A DNA stretch of 27,586 nt from a virus, in the IMG/VR virus record IMGVR_UViG_3300025137_000213, positions 1 to 27,586 of that record; one strand, given 5' to 3'. Within the stretch, counting starts at the first letter, position 1. Every line of letters begins with the position of its first letter. Positions 9,331 through 26,243 of this stretch are shown here, in pieces. Both the position numbers and the translations under genes were made by a program. Below the pieces are notes generated by a model. That model saw nothing but the letters and a program-made list of their open reading frames with translations, was not told where the DNA came from and did not search any database.

Positions 9331-10216
9331 AATTTACAAACCGCCAAGTTTTGACAATCAGATTGTTGTTCCAAAAAACATATTTGATTCCAAAGTTTCA
9401 TTGTCTGCATTGGGTTTTTATTGTTGGTTGTTTACTAGAAAATCAAATTTGCCAATTACATTTCAGGACATCAAAAAATCTTTTGACGTTACTGACCACA
9501 CTATAAGAAAACAAATCAATGAGTTAGAAAATGCCAAATATTTATCAAAAATTCCTGTTCGAAATAGCGGTAAGTTTGGGGGGTATAATTATTATATTTC
9601 TGACGTCACCATGTTAAAAAAACCGCATACGGTTAAACACACACGGTCAGCTGCTATTACTAATACTAATATATATAAGAATACTAGTATATATAATAAT
9701 AATACTAATACTATTATATATAATAAGAATAATAATAATACTATCAAAATTAAAAATGAAAAATTATTTTCAGAAATAAAAGAAAATATAAATCATTTCA
9801 TGGCGTTGTTTCCAAAAAAATATTGCCAAAACAATACTGACCAATTGAAATGGATTGAGTGTATTTATAAATTAATTGAACTAGACGGTTATACATTAAG
9901 AAAATTATATAGCATTATAAAAACAATTCGCAATGATGAATTCTGGCAAACAAATTTTCTAACTCTTTTAAAACTTAGAAAAAAAAACAAAGATGGCATT
10001 TTGTATATAGATTTTTTTAATGAGATTTATAAATCAAAAAAACCTAAATCATATTATAAAGTAAAAAATTTAGAATCTTATTTTATTTATGATTCTAATA
10101 ATAAAAAATTACTAGGTGCGGTTGCTAACAACATAAAATTGACTGAATTCAATTTAAAAAATGTTCTCAATGAAACAGAGATTCAAGAAATAAAAAATTA
10201 TGTCGAAACTAATTAG
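9323..10216 (+). CDS. Replication initiator-like protein (winged helix plus DnaD-like end)
   Basis: The 297-residue protein has an N-terminal winged helix (about residues 25-92): L-S-A-L-G-F-Y-C-W-L, then I-T-F-Q-D-I-K-K-S-F-D-V-T-D-H-T-I-R-K and a G-G-Y-N-Y-Y wing. A low-complexity linker rich in Asn, Thr, Ile and Tyr follows (about 111-145). The C-terminal part has R-N-D-E-F-W-Q-T-N-F-L-T-L-L-K-L-R-K-K-N, a pattern common in phage replication initiators of the DnaD-like sort. I infer it binds the phage origin and helps load the helicase encoded at 10591. The linker DNA is itself origin-like. Confidence 0.65.
   Translation: MTKIYKPPSFDNQIVVPKNIFDSKVSLSALGFYCWLFTRKSNLPITFQDIKKSFDVTDHTIRKQINELENAKYLSKIPVRNSGKFGGYNYYISDVTMLKKPHTVKHTRSAAITNTNIYKNTSIYNNNTNTIIYNKNNNNTIKIKNEKLFSEIKENINHFMALFPKKYCQNNTDQLKWIECIYKLIELDGYTLRKLYSIIKTIRNDEFWQTNFLTLLKLRKKNKDGILYIDFFNEIYKSKKPKSYYKVKNLESYFIYDSNNKKLLGAVANNIKLTEFNLKNVLNETEIQEIKNYVETN
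9601..9745 (+). repeat. Origin-like tract: palindromes then AT-rich iterons inside the initiator gene
   Basis: TGACGTCA (9601-9608) is a perfect palindrome and AACCG-CATA-CGGTT (9621-9634) an inverted repeat. From about 9655 to 9745 the DNA is almost pure A/T with five copies of AATACTA at 9662, 9680, 9701, 9707 and 9737. Lambdoid phages carry their origin inside the initiator gene O with the same layout (binding sites, then an AT-rich unwinding zone). The role here is inferred; low-complexity protein coding alone could also produce such a tract. Confidence 0.45.
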
Positions 10217-10598
10217 AAATTCAAATCAAGCAAAACAGGGCATTGATTTTTATGGATTACAGAATGGTCCAATGCACCCTAGTGATATTGATGCTGTTTT
10301 GGAATTTGATAACAAGGCAATTATATTTATAGAATTAAAGAAAATAAATAACGACATACCAACAGGGCAAAGATTATTATTAGAAAGACTAACAGATTCC
10401 TGGCATACAAAAAAAGCAATAACAATAAAAGCAACACATTCTTTTAAAAACGACAATAATGATGTCCCATTGCATTTATGTCAAGTTCAGAAATTTTATT
10501 ATGATGGTAAATGGACGTACTTTTCTGAAAATTTAAAAGTCTTTCTAAATAAATTGGGACTTAAATGGAAAATAACTAAATTAAAATTTGATGAATGA
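10200..10598 (+). CDS. Putative PD-(D/E)XK nuclease-like protein
   Basis: The 132-residue protein overlaps the initiator gene by 17 bases. H-P-S-D-I-D-A-V-L-E-F (Asp 29, Asp 31, Glu 35) followed by I-I-F-I-E-L-K-K (Glu 45, Lys 47) and G-Q-R-L-L-L-E-R (Gln 57) fit the core of a small PD-(D/E)XK nuclease such as a junction resolvase. Similar phage proteins with a D-I-D, E-x-K and G-Q-R-L-x-L-E-R order occur in replication clusters. Substrate is unknown; junction or flap cleavage is the likely role from context. Confidence 0.6.
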   Translation: MSKLIRNSNQAKQGIDFYGLQNGPMHPSDIDAVLEFDNKAIIFIELKKINNDIPTGQRLLLERLTDSWHTKKAITIKATHSFKNDNNDVPLHLCQVQKFYYDGKWTYFSENLKVFLNKLGLKWKITKLKFDE

Positions 10599-12258
10599 TT
10601 ATATAGACCTAGGTATTGACCTAAAAGGTAAAAAATATGGACAAATAAAAACTAAATGTCCAAAATGCTACAGCCAAAGAAAAAAAAAGAACGACCCATC
10701 TCTAAGCGTTGATATTGACAAAGGCCTTTATAATTGTCATCATTGCGGTTTCTCTGGGTCTATAAAGTTTAAAAAGAAACTAGAATATATAATTCCAAAA
10801 GAGAATAAAAACAAGTTAAGTGAGAATGTGATAAAATGGTTTGCTAATCGTAAAATTATTGAAAACACTTTACAGACATGGAAAATATCTGAATCAACAA
10901 CTTATTTTCCACAAATAAGCAAAAGGCGTAAAGCAATACATTTTAATTATTATAGAGATGGTAAACTAATAAATGTTAAATATAGAGATGGTAAAAAGAA
11001 TTTTAAATTATCTAAAGGGGCTGAATTAATATTTTATGGTTTAGATTTTATAAAAAACACAGACACTGTTTATATAGTTGAGGGTGAAATTGACGCCCTT
11101 ACATTGTATCAATGTGGCATTTATAACGTTTGTTCTGTTCCAAATGGGGCATCCAAAGGAAATACTAAATTAGAATACTTAGATAATTGTTATAAATACT
11201 TTGAAAACAAAAAAACTATTGTAATATGCACAGATAATGATGATGCTGGTTTGTCACTAAGAAATGAACTAGCTAGGCGTTTTGGAGCTTACAAATGCAA
11301 ATACGTTGATTTTAAGGACTGTAAAGATGCAAATGATGTATTGGTAGCGAAAAATAAAGAAACGCTGTTAGAACTCATTAAAACAGCAAAGAACTTTCCA
11401 TTGGACGGAATAGTTAATATAAATGATATTTGGGATGATGTTTTAAATTTTAATAAAAAAGGTGTTAAAACTTATGATATTGGTTTTGAATGTAATGATT
11501 TATTTAATATTTCTTTGGCTCAATGGTCTGTTTTGACCGGCATTCCAAACCACGGTAAATCTGATTTTTTAGACCAGTTGATGTGCAATTTAGCAGAAAA
11601 ACACAATTTTAGGTGTGCAATATTTGCACCTGAGTCTTTTCCTTATGAGGGTCACATAAAAAGAATTGCTAACAAGTTAAATGGTCAAAATTGTGATAAT
11701 GATATGTTAAATGCAACTAAAGATTTTATTATGGAGCATTTTTACTGGGTCAAAATAAATCTAAAAAATTTATCATTAGAATCTATATTAAAAGAGTTTA
11801 GGCAATTGGTATTTCAGCGCGGGATTAACGTTTGTGTTATTGACCCGTGGAATATGTTAGACCATACGACACAGCGTGATTTTGGATATATAGGCCATAA
11901 ATTATCTTTACTAACACAATTTGTTCAACAAACAAATACACATTTATTTTTAGTGGCACATCCAAAAAAGATTGAATCAGAGAATGGACAGTTTCAAAAA
12001 GTAGATTTATATAAGATTTCTGGTTCCGCTGACTTTTTTAATAAAACATTCAATGGATTAGTATGTGAAAGGGTTATTGGCGAAAAGACAGAATATGGTT
12101 CTGATTTAGTTAAAATACATATCCAAAAGGTAAAAAGAAAGGAAAACGGACAACTAGGAACATTTACATTAGCACCTGACTTTGATAATGGTGGTGTTTA
12201 TAAAAAGGTAGTCCAAACAGAAATAAAACCGATAATAAAAAATAAAATACCATTCTAA
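10591..12258 (+). CDS. DNA primase-helicase (T7 gp4-like)
   Basis: The ATG at 10591 gives 555 residues. A zinc ribbon has C23-P-K-C26 and C49-H-H-C52. The Toprim part has V-E-G-E-I-D-A-L (163-170) and T-D-N-D-D-A-G (Asp 215, Asp 217), metal-binding residues of primer synthesis. The helicase half has a Walker A G-I-P-N-H-G-K-S (317-324), a Walker B-like strand V-C-V-I-D-P-W-N and a V-A-H-P motif, as in T7 gp4/Twinkle. It should unwind the fork and lay primers. No DNA polymerase gene is seen in the window, so the phage may use the host enzyme or encode one elsewhere. Confidence 0.9.
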   Translation: MNDYIDLGIDLKGKKYGQIKTKCPKCYSQRKKKNDPSLSVDIDKGLYNCHHCGFSGSIKFKKKLEYIIPKENKNKLSENVIKWFANRKIIENTLQTWKISESTTYFPQISKRRKAIHFNYYRDGKLINVKYRDGKKNFKLSKGAELIFYGLDFIKNTDTVYIVEGEIDALTLYQCGIYNVCSVPNGASKGNTKLEYLDNCYKYFENKKTIVICTDNDDAGLSLRNELARRFGAYKCKYVDFKDCKDANDVLVAKNKETLLELIKTAKNFPLDGIVNINDIWDDVLNFNKKGVKTYDIGFECNDLFNISLAQWSVLTGIPNHGKSDFLDQLMCNLAEKHNFRCAIFAPESFPYEGHIKRIANKLNGQNCDNDMLNATKDFIMEHFYWVKINLKNLSLESILKEFRQLVFQRGINVCVIDPWNMLDHTTQRDFGYIGHKLSLLTQFVQQTNTHLFLVAHPKKIESENGQFQKVDLYKISGSADFFNKTFNGLVCERVIGEKTEYGSDLVKIHIQKVKRKENGQLGTFTLAPDFDNGGVYKKVVQTEIKPIIKNKIPF

Positions 12259-15229: not shown

Positions 15230-17509
15230 ATGGCATCAATCTACGATAGGTTTAGAAATCTATTTTCAAACAAGAATTTACAAAGAACAGCCGAGGCCTA
15301 TAATAGAGCTGTATTTAATTATATGGGCAATAACATTGTTTTTGCCAAAGAAAATGATGATACATATATCAATCATGGTTACAGACGTAATGCGACAATT
15401 TATTCCATTGTGAATATTATATCCAAAGCGTGTACAACAATTCCTTTTGTTATATATGAAAAGAAATCTGAAAATGATTTAAAAAGATATAAGTCAATCA
15501 CATCATCTGGATTGGACACAAATGTATTGCTTAAGGCAGAACAGCTTAGAAAATCAGCATTGATAGAATTAGATGACACAGAATTACATCAATTATTAGA
15601 CAGGCCAAATCCAGCACAATCTTATAATTCCTGGATGTCAGAAATAGTTGCATTTGGTAAACTAACAGGAAACAGATATATATATGGCATAGGGCCTGAA
15701 ACAGGTGGCAATGCATCTAAATATAAAGAACTTTACGTTTTACCATCTCAGCTCATGGAAATTGTTTCTGGTGGTTTAATGAATCCTGTAAAAGCATACA
15801 GATTGGACTACAAAGGAGCTTATGATATAAGAGCTGAGGATATATTACATATTAAAGATTTTAACCCAGATTATACAGGAACAGGCTCACACCTTTATGG
15901 TCAGTCACCATTAAAAGCTGGACTAAGAACTTTGACAACAAATAATGAGGCTGTAACTACTGGTGTTAAATATTTACAGAATCAAACAGCTAGAGGTGTT
16001 TTATATGCTGATGAGGGTGATTTAAATGAGGTTCAAGCTCAAGCGTTAAAAGATAAGTTTAGGAAAGCGCACCAGGGTTCTAATAATGCTGGTGATGTTA
16101 TAATCACACCAAAGAAATTATCATGGGTGAATTTTGGATTGGCTGCCAGTGATTTATCACTTATAGAACAATACAATGCCTCAATAAAAGATTTGGCAAA
16201 TATTTATTCTGTCCCAGCTGTATTGCTTAACAACACAGAATCATCTACTTATAACAATGTAAAAGAGGCTAAAAAGAGTTTATATCAAAACTGTGTGATG
16301 CCAGAAATGATAAAAATAAGAGATGAACTCAATAGATGGTTGGCCCCTAAATTTGGTGAAAAACTATATATTGATTTTGATTTTACTGTCATACCAGAAC
16401 TTCAAGAGGAAATGGACAAAGTTGTTCAACAGCTTTCTCAATCCTGGTGGTTAACAATGAATGAAAAAAGAGCTGCAATGAATTACGGTGCTGATGAGGA
16501 TGATGCAAAGCTAAATGATTATTATATTCCAGCAAACCTTATTCCTTTGAATGCTGTTGACGATACGCCAGTTGAGCCTTTAGACCCAGACATTGACAAA
16601 AGGTTTAAAAAACTAAATGTAAAATCTAAAGTTCCTGGAATGACTGATGTGTTTACAACTAGAGGTGAGGCTGAGGATAGAGCTGAGGATTTAGGGGGGC
16701 GTGGATTTCATGTGCATCAATTTGATGGTGAGGATGTTTATATGCCTTTTGAATCTCATGAACAATATGAAAGAGCAATTGAAAATAATAAATATCATTA
16801 TGGCGAACCTCATGAAGATGATAAGGATAACTATGATAATGAGGACCAAAGCAAAGCTCCAAAGATTTCACCTAATGTAGAAACTGGATTAAGACGAAGG
16901 GTCGAGGAACATAATGAAGAACATGGCGACAAACCATCATCCAGAGCTACATACGGAATGTTAGCGGCATCATTTAGACGTGGTGTTGGTGCATATAGAA
17001 CAAACCCATCATCGGTTAGACCAAATGTAAGGTCTGAGGAACAATGGGCGTTTGGCCGTGTTTCTGGATTATTATATGCTTTGAGAAACAACAGATTTAG
17101 AAGAACGCCTTATGACACAGATTTACTGCCTGAGGAACATCCATTGTCTAGTAAAGAAAAATCATATCAAAGCAAACAAATGTTTGACGACTACCCACAA
17201 AGCGCAACTAACAACGCTAAAAGAGTAAAGAACTGGATTGATAAATATGGCAGAGACGAAGTGGATGGTATGACTAAAGTAGGACTTGCAAGGATGAACC
17301 AGCTTATCAGCAGAGAATCTTTGAGTTTATCTACAGTTAAAAGAACTTTTAGTTTTTTATCAAGGACCAAAGGAGGTGGATATAATAAAATTAATCCTGA
17401 CTTTAAAGACACTCCCTGGAAAGACAAAGGATATGTTGCATATTTAGGATGGGGTGGTGAGGCTATGCTAAGCTGGTCTGAAAAAACTTTGGATAAACTA
17501 GATGAATAA
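15230..17509 (+). CDS. Portal protein with long modular C-terminal extension
   Basis: Residues about 1-440 are a HK97-type portal: I-Y-S-I-V-N-I-I-S-K-A, L-L-D-R-P-N-P-A-Q-S, L-T-G-N-R-Y-I-Y, G-Q-S-P-L-K-A-G and S-V-P-A-V-L-L-N-N follow the family order. The portal is the ring through which DNA enters the head. At 759 residues it is far longer than the usual 400-500. The extension holds three segments: V-F-T-T-R-G-E-A to D-V-Y-M-P-F-E-S-H (about 474-505); R-G-V-G-A-Y-R-T-N-P to T-D-L-L-P-E-E-H-P (about 580-640, DUF5824-like from recall); and W-K-D-K-G-Y-V-A-Y-L-G-W-G-G (near the end). Such modules usually occur in other phage head proteins. Confidence 0.9.
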   Translation: MASIYDRFRNLFSNKNLQRTAEAYNRAVFNYMGNNIVFAKENDDTYINHGYRRNATIYSIVNIISKACTTIPFVIYEKKSENDLKRYKSITSSGLDTNVLLKAEQLRKSALIELDDTELHQLLDRPNPAQSYNSWMSEIVAFGKLTGNRYIYGIGPETGGNASKYKELYVLPSQLMEIVSGGLMNPVKAYRLDYKGAYDIRAEDILHIKDFNPDYTGTGSHLYGQSPLKAGLRTLTTNNEAVTTGVKYLQNQTARGVLYADEGDLNEVQAQALKDKFRKAHQGSNNAGDVIITPKKLSWVNFGLAASDLSLIEQYNASIKDLANIYSVPAVLLNNTESSTYNNVKEAKKSLYQNCVMPEMIKIRDELNRWLAPKFGEKLYIDFDFTVIPELQEEMDKVVQQLSQSWWLTMNEKRAAMNYGADEDDAKLNDYYIPANLIPLNAVDDTPVEPLDPDIDKRFKKLNVKSKVPGMTDVFTTRGEAEDRAEDLGGRGFHVHQFDGEDVYMPFESHEQYERAIENNKYHYGEPHEDDKDNYDNEDQSKAPKISPNVETGLRRRVEEHNEEHGDKPSSRATYGMLAASFRRGVGAYRTNPSSVRPNVRSEEQWAFGRVSGLLYALRNNRFRRTPYDTDLLPEEHPLSSKEKSYQSKQMFDDYPQSATNNAKRVKNWIDKYGRDEVDGMTKVGLARMNQLISRESLSLSTVKRTFSFLSRTKGGGYNKINPDFKDTPWKDKGYVAYLGWGGEAMLSWSEKTLDKLDE

Positions 17510-18380: not shown

Positions 18381-19064
18381 ATGAATAAAATAATTTTTAA
18401 GCAATCCCCTATTGGCGAAATAATGGATGCTGATGAAAATAAAGGTATCGTCAAAGGTTATGCTAGTTATTTTGATAATATAGATTCAGACAAAGATATT
18501 ATTAGAGCCGGTTCCTATAAAAAAACAATTATGGAAAATGGTTCTAGAGTAAAATATTTATATCAGCATGACATGAATAAGCCTATCGGAAAAATGAATG
18601 AGCTTTATGAGGATGACAAAGGATTGGTTTTTGTTGCTGAGGTTCCAAAAACTCAATTAGGAAAGGACGTCATTGAGCTTATGAAAGCTGGTGTCATAAC
18701 AGAAAATTCAGTTGGTATAATGCCAATAGTCAAAGAGGACAAAGGTAATTACAGGGAAATCCGTGAGGTTAAACTTTATGAGGTATCAGCTGTTACACTA
18801 GCGGCCAATGACGAAGCAAAAATATTAGATGTAAAAGGAACTAAATCATTAGAGGCCATTTACTCACGTTACGATAATCTAATAAAGATAATTCGTAAAA
18901 ACAATATTTCAGACGAACTTGCATTTGCAATTGAATCTGAAATTTATAAACTCAAATCATATCTTATTGAACTCACAAAGTCGCCAAAAAACACTTTGCC
19001 GAAACAAGAAAACAATGATGATGAGTTACTTAAATATTTGTATAACAATCTCACAAAAAAGTAA
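18381..19064 (+). CDS. HK97-type prohead serine protease
   Basis: The 227-residue protein has the U35-type motifs: G-Y-A-S-Y-F-D-N near residue 26, Y-Q-H-D with His 63, T-E-N-S-V-G with Ser 110, and a downstream Y-E-V-S-A-V-T with Glu 134, probable catalytic residues. It cleaves the capsid scaffold during head maturation. Its C-terminal 75 residues are helical and charged, possibly a scaffold-like tail. It lies seven bases before the capsid gene, the usual order. Confidence 0.92.
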   Translation: MNKIIFKQSPIGEIMDADENKGIVKGYASYFDNIDSDKDIIRAGSYKKTIMENGSRVKYLYQHDMNKPIGKMNELYEDDKGLVFVAEVPKTQLGKDVIELMKAGVITENSVGIMPIVKEDKGNYREIREVKLYEVSAVTLAANDEAKILDVKGTKSLEAIYSRYDNLIKIIRKNNISDELAFAIESEIYKLKSYLIELTKSPKNTLPKQENNDDELLKYLYNNLTKK

Positions 19065-19071
19065 TTTAAAA

Positions 19072-20271
19072 ATGGATAATAATATCAAAAAAGAATTAGA
19101 TAACATCACAGGTGTTATTGATTCTAAAATTGAAAAATCCTCATTACAAGCTATCGAAACAATGAAAGCTGAAACTGAGGCTGTTGTTAAATCCAGCATT
19201 GAAAATGTTTCTGGTAAAATAACAGAAATCAATGACAGATTAGATAAATCTGAAATTGAATCAAAAAAGAGATTTGAAGCTGAAAAACCAGTAAGTTTTA
19301 AATCCGCATTAAAAGACGCCTTAAGTGGCGGAGCAATCGACAGTTTTGTCAAAGGGAATACTAGGTCAGCTAGATTTGATTTAAAAGCTGATATGACTAC
19401 GGCAGATTTTACGGGTGATGTAATTGCACCTTTAAGAGTGCCAGGTGTCTTTAAGGACCCATCTAGAGCGCAACACTTCAGAGACTTCATACCAGTTGGT
19501 TCAACTCAATCAGATGTAATCAGATACGTTAAAGAATCTGGTTATTCAGACGGAGCTGGAGCAAAAGCTGAAGGTAATGTGCTAGGTCAAACTGACTTCG
19601 ACCTTCAAGCTGTTGACGCTAATGTTCAATTGATTGGAACATATTTAAGACTATCTAAACAGATGGTTGAGGATTATGACCAATTAAGCTCATACTTAAG
19701 TTCTAGAATACCTGGAAAGGTATTGACAGCTGAAGATGACCAAATCGTAGGCGGAAATGGTGTTTCACCAAACTTCCTAGGTTTATTCAATTCAGGAACA
19801 GCATTTGACACATCAACAAACAATCCGTTTGCTGATTCAGTTGAAAGTGCAAATGAGTTTGATGTATTAATTGCAACAATGAATTCATTAGCTTTAAATG
19901 AATACAGAGCGGACAACATAGTGTTGAACCCATCTGATTTTCATAAGATTCTCTTATTAAAAGATACTCAAAACAATTATCTAAAAGACCAAGTATACCA
20001 AGGACTACAGCCTAGTTTTATGGGAGTGCCTGTAATTCTAAATACTGAAATCCCTAATGGACAATTCCTAGTAGCAAACTTTGCTCAGGCGTGTCAATAT
20101 TGGGTGAGAGATAATGTAAGTTTAGAGTTCTTTGAGCAAGATAGTGACAATGTTCAAAAGAATTTTATCACTGTTAGAGCGCAACTAAGAGGTGCATTAG
20201 CTACATATCTTCCAAAAGCTATTATACATGGAACATTCTCGACTGCAAAAGCAGCATTAGAGACTCCGTAA
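19072..20271 (+). CDS. Major capsid protein, HK97 fold
   Basis: I chose the ATG at 19072 (399 residues). Upstream codons in frame overlap the protease gene and give no sensible protein. Residues about 1-75 are a coiled-coil scaffold (delta) domain, probably removed by the protease upstream. The body shows family features: T-A-D-F-T-G-D-V-I-A-P, F-R-D-F-I-P-V-G-S, L-R-L-S-K-Q-M-V-E-D, G-N-G-V-S-P-N-F-L-G-L, I-V-L-N-P-S-D-F and G-V-P-V-I-L-N-T. It assembles the icosahedral shell. A terminator follows 22 bases downstream. Confidence 0.94.
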   Translation: MDNNIKKELDNITGVIDSKIEKSSLQAIETMKAETEAVVKSSIENVSGKITEINDRLDKSEIESKKRFEAEKPVSFKSALKDALSGGAIDSFVKGNTRSARFDLKADMTTADFTGDVIAPLRVPGVFKDPSRAQHFRDFIPVGSTQSDVIRYVKESGYSDGAGAKAEGNVLGQTDFDLQAVDANVQLIGTYLRLSKQMVEDYDQLSSYLSSRIPGKVLTAEDDQIVGGNGVSPNFLGLFNSGTAFDTSTNNPFADSVESANEFDVLIATMNSLALNEYRADNIVLNPSDFHKILLLKDTQNNYLKDQVYQGLQPSFMGVPVILNTEIPNGQFLVANFAQACQYWVRDNVSLEFFEQDSDNVQKNFITVRAQLRGALATYLPKAIIHGTFSTAKAALETP

Positions 20272-23384: not shown

Positions 23385-23684
23385 ATGAGTAAAGTTTTAA
23401 ATGAGGATACACAAGTAAAATTAGATTTAAAGTCAATAGGAATGATTGTGACTTTTGTTGCTATGTTAGCTGGAATTTTTTTTACATTAAAATCTGACAT
23501 TGCATTGGCTAAGGAATTACCCGAATTTCCAGTTTCATCAAAAGAGCTTGATTTCAAAGACAAATTGACGCGTTCGCAAATAGATTTGACTCAGCAACAA
23601 GTTGAGAATATTCAAGAGGATGTCAAAGAAATAAAAGAAACTGTCGAAAAGATAGAAGAAAGATTATATGAACTTAAAAGATAA
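23385..23684 (+). CDS. Inner-membrane protein with coiled coil, i-spanin-like layout
   Basis: The 99-residue protein has a short N-terminal tail, one hydrophobic helix (about residues 17-35: I-G-M-I-V-T-F-V-A-M-L-A-G-I-F-F-T-L) and a coiled coil from about 61 to 98 (Q-Q-V-E-N-I-Q-E-D-V-K-E-I). An N-terminal membrane helix with a periplasmic coiled coil is the layout of inner-membrane spanins. It starts five bases after the tail terminator gene and opens the cassette that leads to amidase and holin. A holin-like or other membrane role is equally possible, as no outer lipoprotein partner with a lipobox is seen. Confidence 0.6.
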   Translation: MSKVLNEDTQVKLDLKSIGMIVTFVAMLAGIFFTLKSDIALAKELPEFPVSSKELDFKDKLTRSQIDLTQQQVENIQEDVKEIKETVEKIEERLYELKR

Positions 23685-24018
23685 AATATGTGTCCTGTTA
23701 ACTGTCCTATTTGTTTCAATTGCCAGTAGTCAAAACTATAAAGAAAATGTCAGCGTTGTTTTGTTTAGTGCAAGTTTTGTTGAGCAAATTTCAATAAAAA
23801 AATACAATAAACATAATACGTATGTTTTTGACTTTGAAAACATTAAGCATGAAGATTATTTCATAAAAGAAAATATTGAATTTTTACCATCAATAGTTTT
23901 ATACAATAATGGTAAAGAAATATATAGGATTGAAGCTGACATTACTTTAAAAATGCCAGAAGATTACAAAACAAAACTAGAAAAAGAAATAGATAAATTA
24001 ATTGAAGATAAATTTTAG
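23668..24018 (+). CDS. Secreted thioredoxin-like protein lacking CxxC
   Basis: The 116-residue protein has a signal peptide (C-V-L-L-T-V-L-F-V-S-I-A-S-S, cut near residue 20-22). The mature part looks like a thioredoxin fold: V-S-V-V-L-F-S-A-S-F, where a redox enzyme would have a W-C-x-x-C; a Y-V-F-D-F strand; and F-L-P-S-I-V-L-Y-N-N-G-K-E-I-Y-R-I with Pro 74 at the cis-proline place. There is no cysteine in the mature part, so no disulfide chemistry is expected. It overlaps the membrane protein gene by 17 bases. A periplasmic binding or chaperone role for the next protein is a guess. Confidence 0.55.
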   Translation: MNLKDKICVLLTVLFVSIASSQNYKENVSVVLFSASFVEQISIKKYNKHNTYVFDFENIKHEDYFIKENIEFLPSIVLYNNGKEIYRIEADITLKMPEDYKTKLEKEIDKLIEDKF

Positions 24019-24020
24019 AT

Positions 24021-25217
24021 ATGAATAAACTAATAACAATACTAGCTCTACTTTTTATAACTAACATAAACGCACAGCTATTTAAAAAGATTTATGATGA
24101 GGTCTTTAAATATTCAACTGTTTATGTAGCAGGAGATATGTCTAATGCATACGAGAACACTAGAAAAGATTATTTTGTAGAAAGACCAAGTGATGATAAT
24201 TTATATGATATACCAAGAGTAATTGATGTAACAGAATATTACCCATTTGATTATAGATATGGATTTGGAATTAGAAGGATTGCAATGTTTGACTTTGAAA
24301 TAAAAGACAATTATATTGACGGAAAAGAATCTTTAGTAGCATTATCAGCACCTACAGCAGCGGTAAAAGGATGGGAATATTTAGTAAACATTGAGTTTGA
24401 ACGAGAACGTGGCGAAGAATTTACAAATTCTAGATATTTTATTAGACATACTGGTAAATATCATATTGTTAAACTAGAACAAAGGGAACAGGGTAACGTT
24501 GGTTTTAAATATCAATCAGCAGAGCTTAGATTTAGAGTTCCCATTAGCAATAAATTTAGTATAAGTTTAGGTGGTATGTATAGAACACATCAAACTGCTT
24601 ATGGTTATAATCCTATTGAAATATGGCTTAATGAAACTATTACGAATACTGACCCAAATACTGGTTTGACATATACTTATCCTTTAAATCCTTGGTATAG
24701 CTTAGGGTATCTTTATGGGTACTCAGACCATCGTACTAGATATACTGATTTAGACACAGGAGAGGAAAGATATGATTGGATATGGAAAGATGAAGCTGGT
24801 AATATAGTAAGTTATTCTGATATACAATTTAGACAAGATATATTTGGCGACCTTATGAATAGGTTTAATAATGAAATTTGGGATGAGCTTGATGGTTTTG
24901 GTGTTATTTCACCAATAGTAGGTATTGACTTTGCACATCAAAGAAACAATCATTGGATTGTAGCTTATGCTAATTATTTACCGCCATATCATAAATATGT
25001 TTCTGGTGATGAATTATATTCATATATGAATCGTAACAATTGGGGAAAAGGCGGATTGAAAAAAGACAGTGAATTAGAACAATGGGAGGATTATCAGTTT
25101 GGCGCAATTATAGGAATTAAATTAAATAGGTTTGGAATATTTATTGAGGGTGAATATACAAAGTTTTGGGACACAGAAATTTTTAATTCTAGTGTTGGTG
25201 TAAATTATAGATTATGA
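24021..25217 (+). CDS. Outer-membrane beta-barrel-like protein with signal peptide
   Basis: The 398-residue protein begins with a clean signal peptide (L-I-T-I-L-A-L-L-F-I-T-N-I-N-A, cut after Ala 18 before Gln 19). The mature part is rich in Tyr, Phe, Trp and alternating strands: G-F-G-I-R-R-I-A-M-F-D-F-E, A-E-L-R-F-R-V-P-I, F-S-I-S-L-G-G-M-Y, W-I-V-A-Y-A-N-Y, F-G-A-I-I-G-I-K-L, F-I-E-G-E-Y-T. It ends S-S-V-G-V-N-Y-R-L, like a final barrel strand. Outer-membrane insertion is inferred. It lies before the amidase with a four-base overlap. Possible jobs are outer-membrane disruption at lysis, receptor masking or blocking superinfection. A structural protein cannot be excluded. Confidence 0.6.
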   Translation: MNKLITILALLFITNINAQLFKKIYDEVFKYSTVYVAGDMSNAYENTRKDYFVERPSDDNLYDIPRVIDVTEYYPFDYRYGFGIRRIAMFDFEIKDNYIDGKESLVALSAPTAAVKGWEYLVNIEFERERGEEFTNSRYFIRHTGKYHIVKLEQREQGNVGFKYQSAELRFRVPISNKFSISLGGMYRTHQTAYGYNPIEIWLNETITNTDPNTGLTYTYPLNPWYSLGYLYGYSDHRTRYTDLDTGEERYDWIWKDEAGNIVSYSDIQFRQDIFGDLMNRFNNEIWDELDGFGVISPIVGIDFAHQRNNHWIVAYANYLPPYHKYVSGDELYSYMNRNNWGKGGLKKDSELEQWEDYQFGAIIGIKLNRFGIFIEGEYTKFWDTEIFNSSVGVNYRL

Positions 25218-25651
25218 GAAAAATAAATAAACTCATTGTCCATTGCACAGCTACACCACAATTTAAAGATTTTACAGTTGAAGATGTTACGGGATGGCAT
25301 GTAAAAGGCAATGGCTGGTCAGATATTGGGTATCATTATTTAATTAGATTAGATGGAACTGTTGAACTAGGAAGGCCAGTAAAAAAATCTGGTGCGCATG
25401 TAGCTGGACATAATAAAGACAGTATTGGTATTGCATATGTTGGTGGGATGGATAAACACATGGAGGAATGGATTGACACTAGAACAGACGAACAAAAAGA
25501 TTCTTTATTTAATTTATTAATGGATTTAAAATTTGAGTTTCCAAATGCTGTTGTTTATGGTCATAATGATTTCACTGATAAAAAAGTATGTCCCTGTTTT
25601 GATGCAAAAAAAGAATATTCTGAAATAAGTAATTTTAATAATTCGCAATGA
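25214..25651 (+). CDS. Endolysin: N-acetylmuramoyl-L-alanine amidase (T7 lysozyme-like)
   Basis: The 145-residue enzyme cuts the bond between muramic acid and the stem peptide. It shows the Amidase_2/T7 lysozyme set: V-H-C-T-A-T with zinc ligand His 10, G-Y-H-Y-L-I with Tyr 40 matching the catalytic tyrosine, G-A-H-V-A-G-H-N with S-I-G-I-A-Y-V-G-G, and Y-G-H-N-D then K-V-C-P-C-F-D, giving ligands His 117 and Cys 126 and a nearby lysine. It has no signal peptide or wall-binding domain, so export depends on the holin-like protein downstream. ATGA overlaps at both ends couple it to its neighbours. Confidence 0.92.
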   Translation: MRKINKLIVHCTATPQFKDFTVEDVTGWHVKGNGWSDIGYHYLIRLDGTVELGRPVKKSGAHVAGHNKDSIGIAYVGGMDKHMEEWIDTRTDEQKDSLFNLLMDLKFEFPNAVVYGHNDFTDKKVCPCFDAKKEYSEISNFNNSQ

Positions 25652-26109
25652 GTAAAATAAAAAAGCCGTTTAAAGAATCCACAGTTGGCAAATTATTATT
25701 TGGTGCTGCTAGTATTGTATCACCTCAATTAGGAGCTGTGTTAAATGGTGTTACTAGTCCAAAAGATGCTATTGCTGAAATAACCAAAGCTAAGATACCA
25801 ACGGAGGATAAAATAAAACTACAAACTTTGATTTATGAACAACAAAATAAGGAAATGGAAGAGATTAGTACAAGATGGGTTGCGGATTCTAAAGGTGGTT
25901 GGCTTACTAAAAACGTTAGGCCTCTTGTTCTTGTTTGGTGCATTGTGGTGTTTAGTTTTGCTGGCATATTGGATTCAGTTGATTCAATTCCTTTTAACAT
26001 AGGTACTACATGGAACGATACATTTGAGAAAGTAATGATGGCTGTTGTATTAGCATATTTTGGAGGGCGTACAACTGAAAAGGCTAGCAGTATTATTAAA
26101 GGTAAATAA
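25648..26109 (+). CDS. Holin-like protein (3-TM / GTA holin type)
   Basis: The 153-residue protein has an amphipathic N-terminal segment (F-G-A-A-S-I-V-S-P-Q-L-G-A), a charged helix, then R-W-V-A-D-S-K-G-G-W-L-T-K-N-V-R-P-L and hydrophobic helices at about 92-108 and 128-140, ending A-Y-F-G-G-R-T-T-E-K. This is the pattern of the holin family with three membrane segments described from gene transfer agents and phages. It would open the inner membrane for the amidase encoded just before it. Confidence 0.8.
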   Translation: MSKIKKPFKESTVGKLLFGAASIVSPQLGAVLNGVTSPKDAIAEITKAKIPTEDKIKLQTLIYEQQNKEMEEISTRWVADSKGGWLTKNVRPLVLVWCIVVFSFAGILDSVDSIPFNIGTTWNDTFEKVMMAVVLAYFGGRTTEKASSIIKGK

Positions 26110-26243
26110 TGGCAAGTAAAAACATATTTACATTTTATAAAAAACCTAGAAAAAAAAGACCAGGCCGTCATTCTAAAAACCTGTCCCATAATAATAAACA
26201 ATCAAAACAATATAAAAAACCCAGGAATCGAGGCGGAATGTAA
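26109..26243 (+). CDS. Tiny very basic protein (44 aa)
   Basis: The ATG overlaps the holin stop (TAATG). The 44 residues hold about 15 Lys and Arg, with K-K-P-R-K-K-R-P-G-R-H-S-K-N and K-Q-Y-K-K-P-R-N-R-G-G near the end. I recall short proteins with a similar R-x-G-x-H-x-K...K-x-Y-x-x-x-R-G-Q-G design in many marine phages, without known function. Nucleic-acid or lipopolysaccharide binding would fit the charge. It ends 44 bases before the fibre gene. Confidence 0.6.
   Translation: MASKNIFTFYKKPRKKRPGRHSKNLSHNNKQSKQYKKPRNRGGM

Follow-up and report, generated by a model that had tools for sequence, protein, structure and literature searches.

The phage protein PA-2 Lc, an OmpC-type porin, acts in the outer membrane in superinfection exclusion and receptor masking. 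Described systems for breaching the outer membrane at lysis include the two-component spanins of the lambda Rz/Rz1 type, the unimolecular spanins (T1 gp11) and the disruptins (phiKT). That an outer-membrane protein could serve as o-spanin was considered by Kongari et al. (2018, PMC6139136), and the Croceibacter phages P2559S and P2559Y and a Bacteroides phage were listed as spanin-less in the same study (PMC6139136). A 2025 survey reported that, within its set, Bacteroidetes phages use u-spanins only (PMC12596118), and the outer-membrane route of spanin-less diderm phages was called open in 2018 and in 2026 (PMC6139136, PMC12819732). Spanin surveys seek lipoproteins and would by design miss an outer-membrane barrel. 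Here we analyzed a stretch of 27,586 nucleotides (IMG/VR virus record IMGVR_UViG_3300025137_000213, positions 1 to 27,586; termed the window), in which a gene for an outer-membrane beta-barrel-like protein (BAR) was found next to an endolysin gene.

BAR Is a Conserved Gene for a Probably Exported Protein

The BAR gene (24021-25217, plus strand) encodes 398 amino acids, beginning with MNKLITILALLFITNINAQ, and with its stop at 25217 overlaps the amidase gene, whose ATG lies at 25214. A preliminary description, made from the sequence of the window, had reported a protein of this length with a signal peptide and an overlap with the amidase gene, and its coordinates proved exact. Comparing the frame with four homologues, dN values of 0.14-0.23 and dS values of 1.3-2.2 were obtained, indicating purifying selection. 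BAR is a real, conserved gene. In one locus (L024, 9959-11149) the gene appeared as two open reading frames of a single contig, 9959-10492 and 10781-11149, which may be due to a frameshift or mark a pseudogene.

Residues 1-18 (24021-24074, plus strand) form a signal peptide by sequence, with predicted cleavage before Q19. This first residue after the predicted signal peptide was invariant among 34 aligned homologues, and together both features point to a cleavable Sec signal. According to the Bacteroidetes "Q-rule", glutamine stands at position +1 in most Sec-exported proteins of these bacteria (PMC10653852). As Q19 of BAR and Q22 of the neighboring TRX protein are both invariant, export is probable for either protein, and the same residues suggest that the host of the virus is probably a member of the Bacteroidota.

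Sequence searches of Pfam, PHROGs and PDB yielded no family for BAR, and Pfam searches with 34 BAR members gave chance matches only, with no homology to OmpC-type phage porins. A single-sequence query of IMG/VR identified 77 loci with BAR relatives and a search with two motifs 539, while three queries found none in 50,697 GenBank phage records. Five matches were obtained in GTDB, all on contigs of metagenome-assembled genomes (Maricaulis, Woesearchaeota, Bacteroidetes, Alphaproteobacteria), which are probably mis-binned phage. A bacterial origin of BAR was considered and rejected, since these matches were scattered over unrelated taxa and no chromosomal family was found.

Predicted Fold of BAR

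The AF2 model of BAR, based on a 34-sequence alignment, reached a pLDDT of 70 and a pTM of 0.61. It contains approximately 12 strands (33-41, 77-86, 117-129, 132-144, 148-157, 162-174, 179-190, 293-308, 311-320, 357-368, 371-381 and 386-396), the last of which ends at the C-terminus. The long loops 42-76, 191-292 and 321-356 all face the predicted outer side with short turns between, except for one long periplasmic turn (87-116), which is without explanation. Alternation of inward and outward residues over the 12 strands combined exceeded that of shuffled sequences (p = 0.003), while most single strands were not significant. A Foldseek comparison with the PDB gave outer-membrane barrels as top matches throughout (NanC, EspP, FapF, OmpG, OmpM1 and BamA), with E-values down to 3e-5, yet with low TM-scores of approximately 0.2-0.5. 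Among the BFVD matches, only A0A516LKJ4, a viral protein without an assigned name (E = 1e-23, 23% identity), is likely a true relative of BAR.

We consider a closed outer-membrane beta-barrel likely, but not proven, given the moderate confidence of the model. Number of strands, PDB matches and summed alternation agree with the barrel-like protein of the preliminary description, while pLDDT and TM-scores limit this agreement. The barrel-like last strand claimed there, the place of a BAM signal, does alternate (V392, V394, Y396, L398), but its terminus is L or FR rather than F or W.

Two Partner Genes Precede BAR

Directly upstream of BAR two further genes were found. The first, TM (23385-23684, plus strand), encodes a putative inner-membrane protein of 99 amino acids with one transmembrane helix (residues 17-35, by hydropathy) and a C-terminal coiled coil (residues 73-99). 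The coiled coil shows a perfect a/d heptad pattern, V-I-V-I-V-I-L-L, with approximately 5% hydrophobic residues at the other positions. The gene is conserved. Weak PHROG matches to holins/anti-holins and to Rz-like spanins were obtained, which are probably driven by the coiled coil. The protein is presumably oriented N-in with the coiled coil in the periplasm and, given this topology, shows the i-spanin architecture of an N-terminal transmembrane helix and a periplasmic coiled coil.

The second gene, TRX (23668-24018, plus strand), encodes a probably exported thioredoxin-fold protein of 116 amino acids with a signal peptide ending at Q22. Its AF2 model reached a pLDDT of 86, and the Foldseek matches were thioredoxins (best E-value 1.5e-4), in line with a thioredoxin fold. 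Q22 and Pro74 were invariant, and the CxxC active site was absent from all 35 homologues, as it is from the window protein. A second subtype, TRX2 (L034, L054, L107, L116), carries WAxFNxxN[CA]F where WCxxC would stand and likewise has no CxxC. No relative of TM or TRX was found in the GenBank phage records except a T7-carried trxA at E = 0.4.

TM, TRX and BAR Form a Near-Obligate Trio

All counts of loci and records were obtained from uncultured fragments by heuristic ORF calling and lipobox rules and are uncorrected for phylogeny; the lineages are not independent. Clustering the ORFs of approximately 120 loci yielded 141 members for TRX, 139 for TM and 119 for BAR; the next largest cluster had 60. 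Against the circularity of loci fetched with BAR, the partner genes TRX, TRX2 and TM were employed as queries. Using TRX as sole query, BAR was found beside TM-TRX in 66 of 68 loci. Using TRX2 or TM, BAR was present in 130 loci, 21 were truncated and 3 were flanked on both sides and had no BAR. TM was followed by TRX in 251 adjacencies, the pair having BAR as a neighbor on one side or on both, and the gene orders TM-TRX-BAR, BAR-TM-TRX and TM-TRX-BAR-TM-TRX were observed. The TM-TRX pair is present twice, flanking BAR, in many phages. All 47 BAR records contained TM, and TRX and BAR overlapped or were separated by at most 10 bp in 91 of 94 cases. Judged from these sequence comparisons, TM, TRX and BAR make up a near-obligate trio, with BAR as its third gene. 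The trio appears widespread in marine phages of probable Bacteroidota hosts, within this search in uncultured phages only. No published description of the trio was found in the literature.

Four loci (L290, L291, L302, L311) combine TM-TRX with endolysin and holin and lack BAR, indicating that BAR is dispensable or replaced there. A specific co-evolution of BAR and TM was also considered; the mirror-tree comparison did not single this pair out, with a weak distance-matrix correlation of 0.38 compared to 0.75 for TM and TRX.

The Trio Is Linked to Endolysin and Holin

Downstream of BAR follow a T7-lysozyme-type N-acetylmuramoyl-L-alanine amidase as endolysin (25214-25651, plus strand; Pfam Amidase_2, E = 2.7e-14; phrog_822, E = 2.8e-56), a holin (25648-26109, plus strand; phrog_3427, E = 3.2e-14) and a very basic peptide of 44 amino acids (26109-26243, plus strand), whose ATG overlaps the holin stop. 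The peptide begins with MASKNIFTFYKKPRKKRPGRHSKN, and its family shares the motif KKRPGxHSKN...RGQGR. These six genes (23385-26243) overlap or nearly touch. The barrel-like protein and its setting in a lysis cassette, as given in the preliminary description, were supported; the two partner genes and the basic peptide had been overlooked there. A promoter scan of the window remained at chance level, no terminator was found, and no Rfam or tRNA match was obtained. Two other genes of the window deserve mention: the major capsid ORF (18919-20271) is listed with a TTG start inside the upstream ORF 18381-19064 and probably starts later, and for the portal protein (15230-17509, 759 amino acids) the Pfam match spans only residues 111-418, with a long C-terminal extension beyond.

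The position of BAR beside the endolysin, noted for this locus before, generalizes to other phages. Of 133 BAR loci having a 3 kb flank on each side, 71 had an amidase or M15 endolysin within 200 bp of BAR and 101 had one within 1 kb, while 29 had no recognized endolysin nearby. The module stayed constant while the endolysin switched between these two unrelated types. The wider surroundings differ: in the window the module is found among tail genes, beside the tail terminator, and in one lineage (L038-L052, e.g., L047 and L051) among head-tail connector genes.

Lipoproteins in and Near the Cassettes

A heuristic scan of the window in all frames detected no ORF with a lipobox, and consequently no canonical o-spanin or u-spanin. 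BAR carries a type I signal, in contrast to the lipobox lipoproteins that serve as o-spanins, and possesses neither the N-terminal lipobox nor the C-terminal transmembrane helix of u-spanins. Having no lipobox, it also differs from the Llp/Cor-type lipoproteins. Membership of BAR in the spanin class was therefore rejected, and the term is retained as a functional analogy.

Other marine phage lysis cassettes encode a u-spanin-like protein of approximately 140-150 amino acids with lipobox and C-terminal transmembrane helix (USP; L333, 1809-2267, and L347-L378), for which PHROG gave no significant match. BAR was found in 0 of 32 USP records and USP, with two positive controls, in 0 of 47 BAR records, both counts coming from records that may be incomplete. 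In L347, L349 and L352, USP directly follows TM-TRX2, the usual place of BAR. This exclusivity may reflect separate lineages. A further lipoprotein family, C21, was observed near the module in approximately 38 loci (e.g., L029, 12264-12653; L325, 6795-7154); it weakly matches the Cor superinfection exclusion protein (E = 0.008), and in six a second TM copy follows. Approximately 32 BAR loci also carry this lipoprotein, which could be the o-spanin itself there.

Possible Functions of the Trio

By analogy with spanins, we tentatively favor BAR as the outer-membrane part of an envelope-spanning, spanin-like lysis module, with a chance a little short of even. In a version that we hold with less confidence, TM, a redox-dead TRX adaptor and BAR would constitute a three-component "barrel spanin" breaching the outer membrane at lysis. 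TM would be anchored to the inner membrane and extend its coiled coil into the periplasm, TRX would act as non-redox periplasmic adaptor, and the host BAM machinery would insert BAR into the outer membrane. Once the holin has fired and the cell wall has been removed by the amidase or M15 endolysin, nothing would keep the complex from clustering, and it might then bring the membranes together or destabilize the outer membrane, the barrel replacing the lipoprotein anchor of the spanin. We infer the mutual binding of the three proteins, the action of the complex at lysis and its way of acting. The trio may represent an undescribed way to break the outer membrane at virus exit.

The preliminary description had named both lysis and receptor masking or a block of superinfection as possible roles. 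Of these, lysis fits better, both roles being still conditional. BAR, together with TRX and TM, masking or blocking a phage receptor and thereby stopping superinfection or the sticking of late progeny to cell debris appears unlikely, even though a phage outer-membrane exclusion protein, Llp of T5, blocks adsorption both to cells already infected and to fragments (PMC9586334), BAR is predicted to have long extracellular loops, and other uncultured phages have annotated porins and barrels. The largest loop of BAR (191-292) is well conserved, unlike a lineage-specific mask, the majority residue accounting for 69% compared to 79% in the strands (34 homologues). Moreover, the neighboring endolysin and holin suggest late expression, while superinfection exclusion proteins were described as early (PMC9586334), and masking leaves the constant TM-TRX pair unaccounted for. 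Lysis is preferred because of the linkage to endolysin and holin, the constant gene for an inner-membrane coiled-coil protein, the lack of a lipoprotein in the window and the mutual exclusion with USP.

Less probable than masking is a sensor for lysis timing or stress, in which BAR would sense an event at the outer membrane, e.g., superinfection, and TRX and TM would relay it to the holin, comparable to lysis inhibition. The anatomy from outer membrane via periplasm to inner membrane is the same and the holin adjoins; the weak holin/anti-holin matches of TM and the lysis cassettes having TM-TRX and no BAR also agree with this. However, no match of TM or TRX to a known lysis-inhibition family appeared, and the matches of TM are at the coiled-coil level only. 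We regard it as improbable that the 44-aa basic peptide is a disruptin-like disruptor, BAR serving permeability, nutrient uptake or envelope integrity. The peptide is small and very cationic, its gene adjoins the holin gene, and it was found in 33 of 47 BAR records compared to 1 of 32 USP records; disruptins being short cationic amphipathic peptides, it resembles them in size and charge only, its conserved RPGxH...RGQG motif being by appearance unlike an amphipathic helix, and in larger phages it is encoded kilobases from the module, often on the opposite strand. A role of BAR as virion or assembly component, suggested by the tail terminator and connector genes beside the module, is very improbable given the cleavable Sec signal, the invariant Q19 and Q22 and the differing position of the module between phages.

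With a common family (539 IMG/VR matches) and two defined partners, lysis by a barrel is directly testable. Even if the trio has no role in lysis, a near-obligate trans-envelope trio that marine phages carry next to their endolysin has apparently not been described so far.

Comparison With Known Systems

PA-2 Lc showed no sequence relation to BAR. T5 Llp and Cor are likewise phage-encoded and targeted to the outer membrane; they are lipoproteins, whereas BAR and its two partners belong to a lysis cassette, and no sequence relation was found. Cyanophage outer-membrane-like barrels in BFVD and phage porins are, like BAR, predicted barrels of marine phages, but without significant sequence similarity to it and with low TM-scores. 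Disruptins, as in phiKT, offer spanin-less phages an alternative disruption of the outer membrane, as BAR might; however, they are short amphipathic cationic peptides, while BAR would be a barrel of 380 amino acids. Unimolecular spanins such as T1 gp11 and the USP-like proteins differ from BAR in their lipobox and C-terminal transmembrane helix, yet USP takes the place of BAR after TM-TRX2 in three cassettes. In comparison to lambda Rz/Rz1, the outer-membrane partner would be a barrel instead of a lipoprotein, a periplasmic thioredoxin-fold protein is added and the window has no lipobox ORF; common to both are an endolysin- and holin-linked inner-membrane protein with one N-terminal transmembrane helix and a predicted periplasmic coiled coil, and an adjoining gene for the outer-membrane partner.
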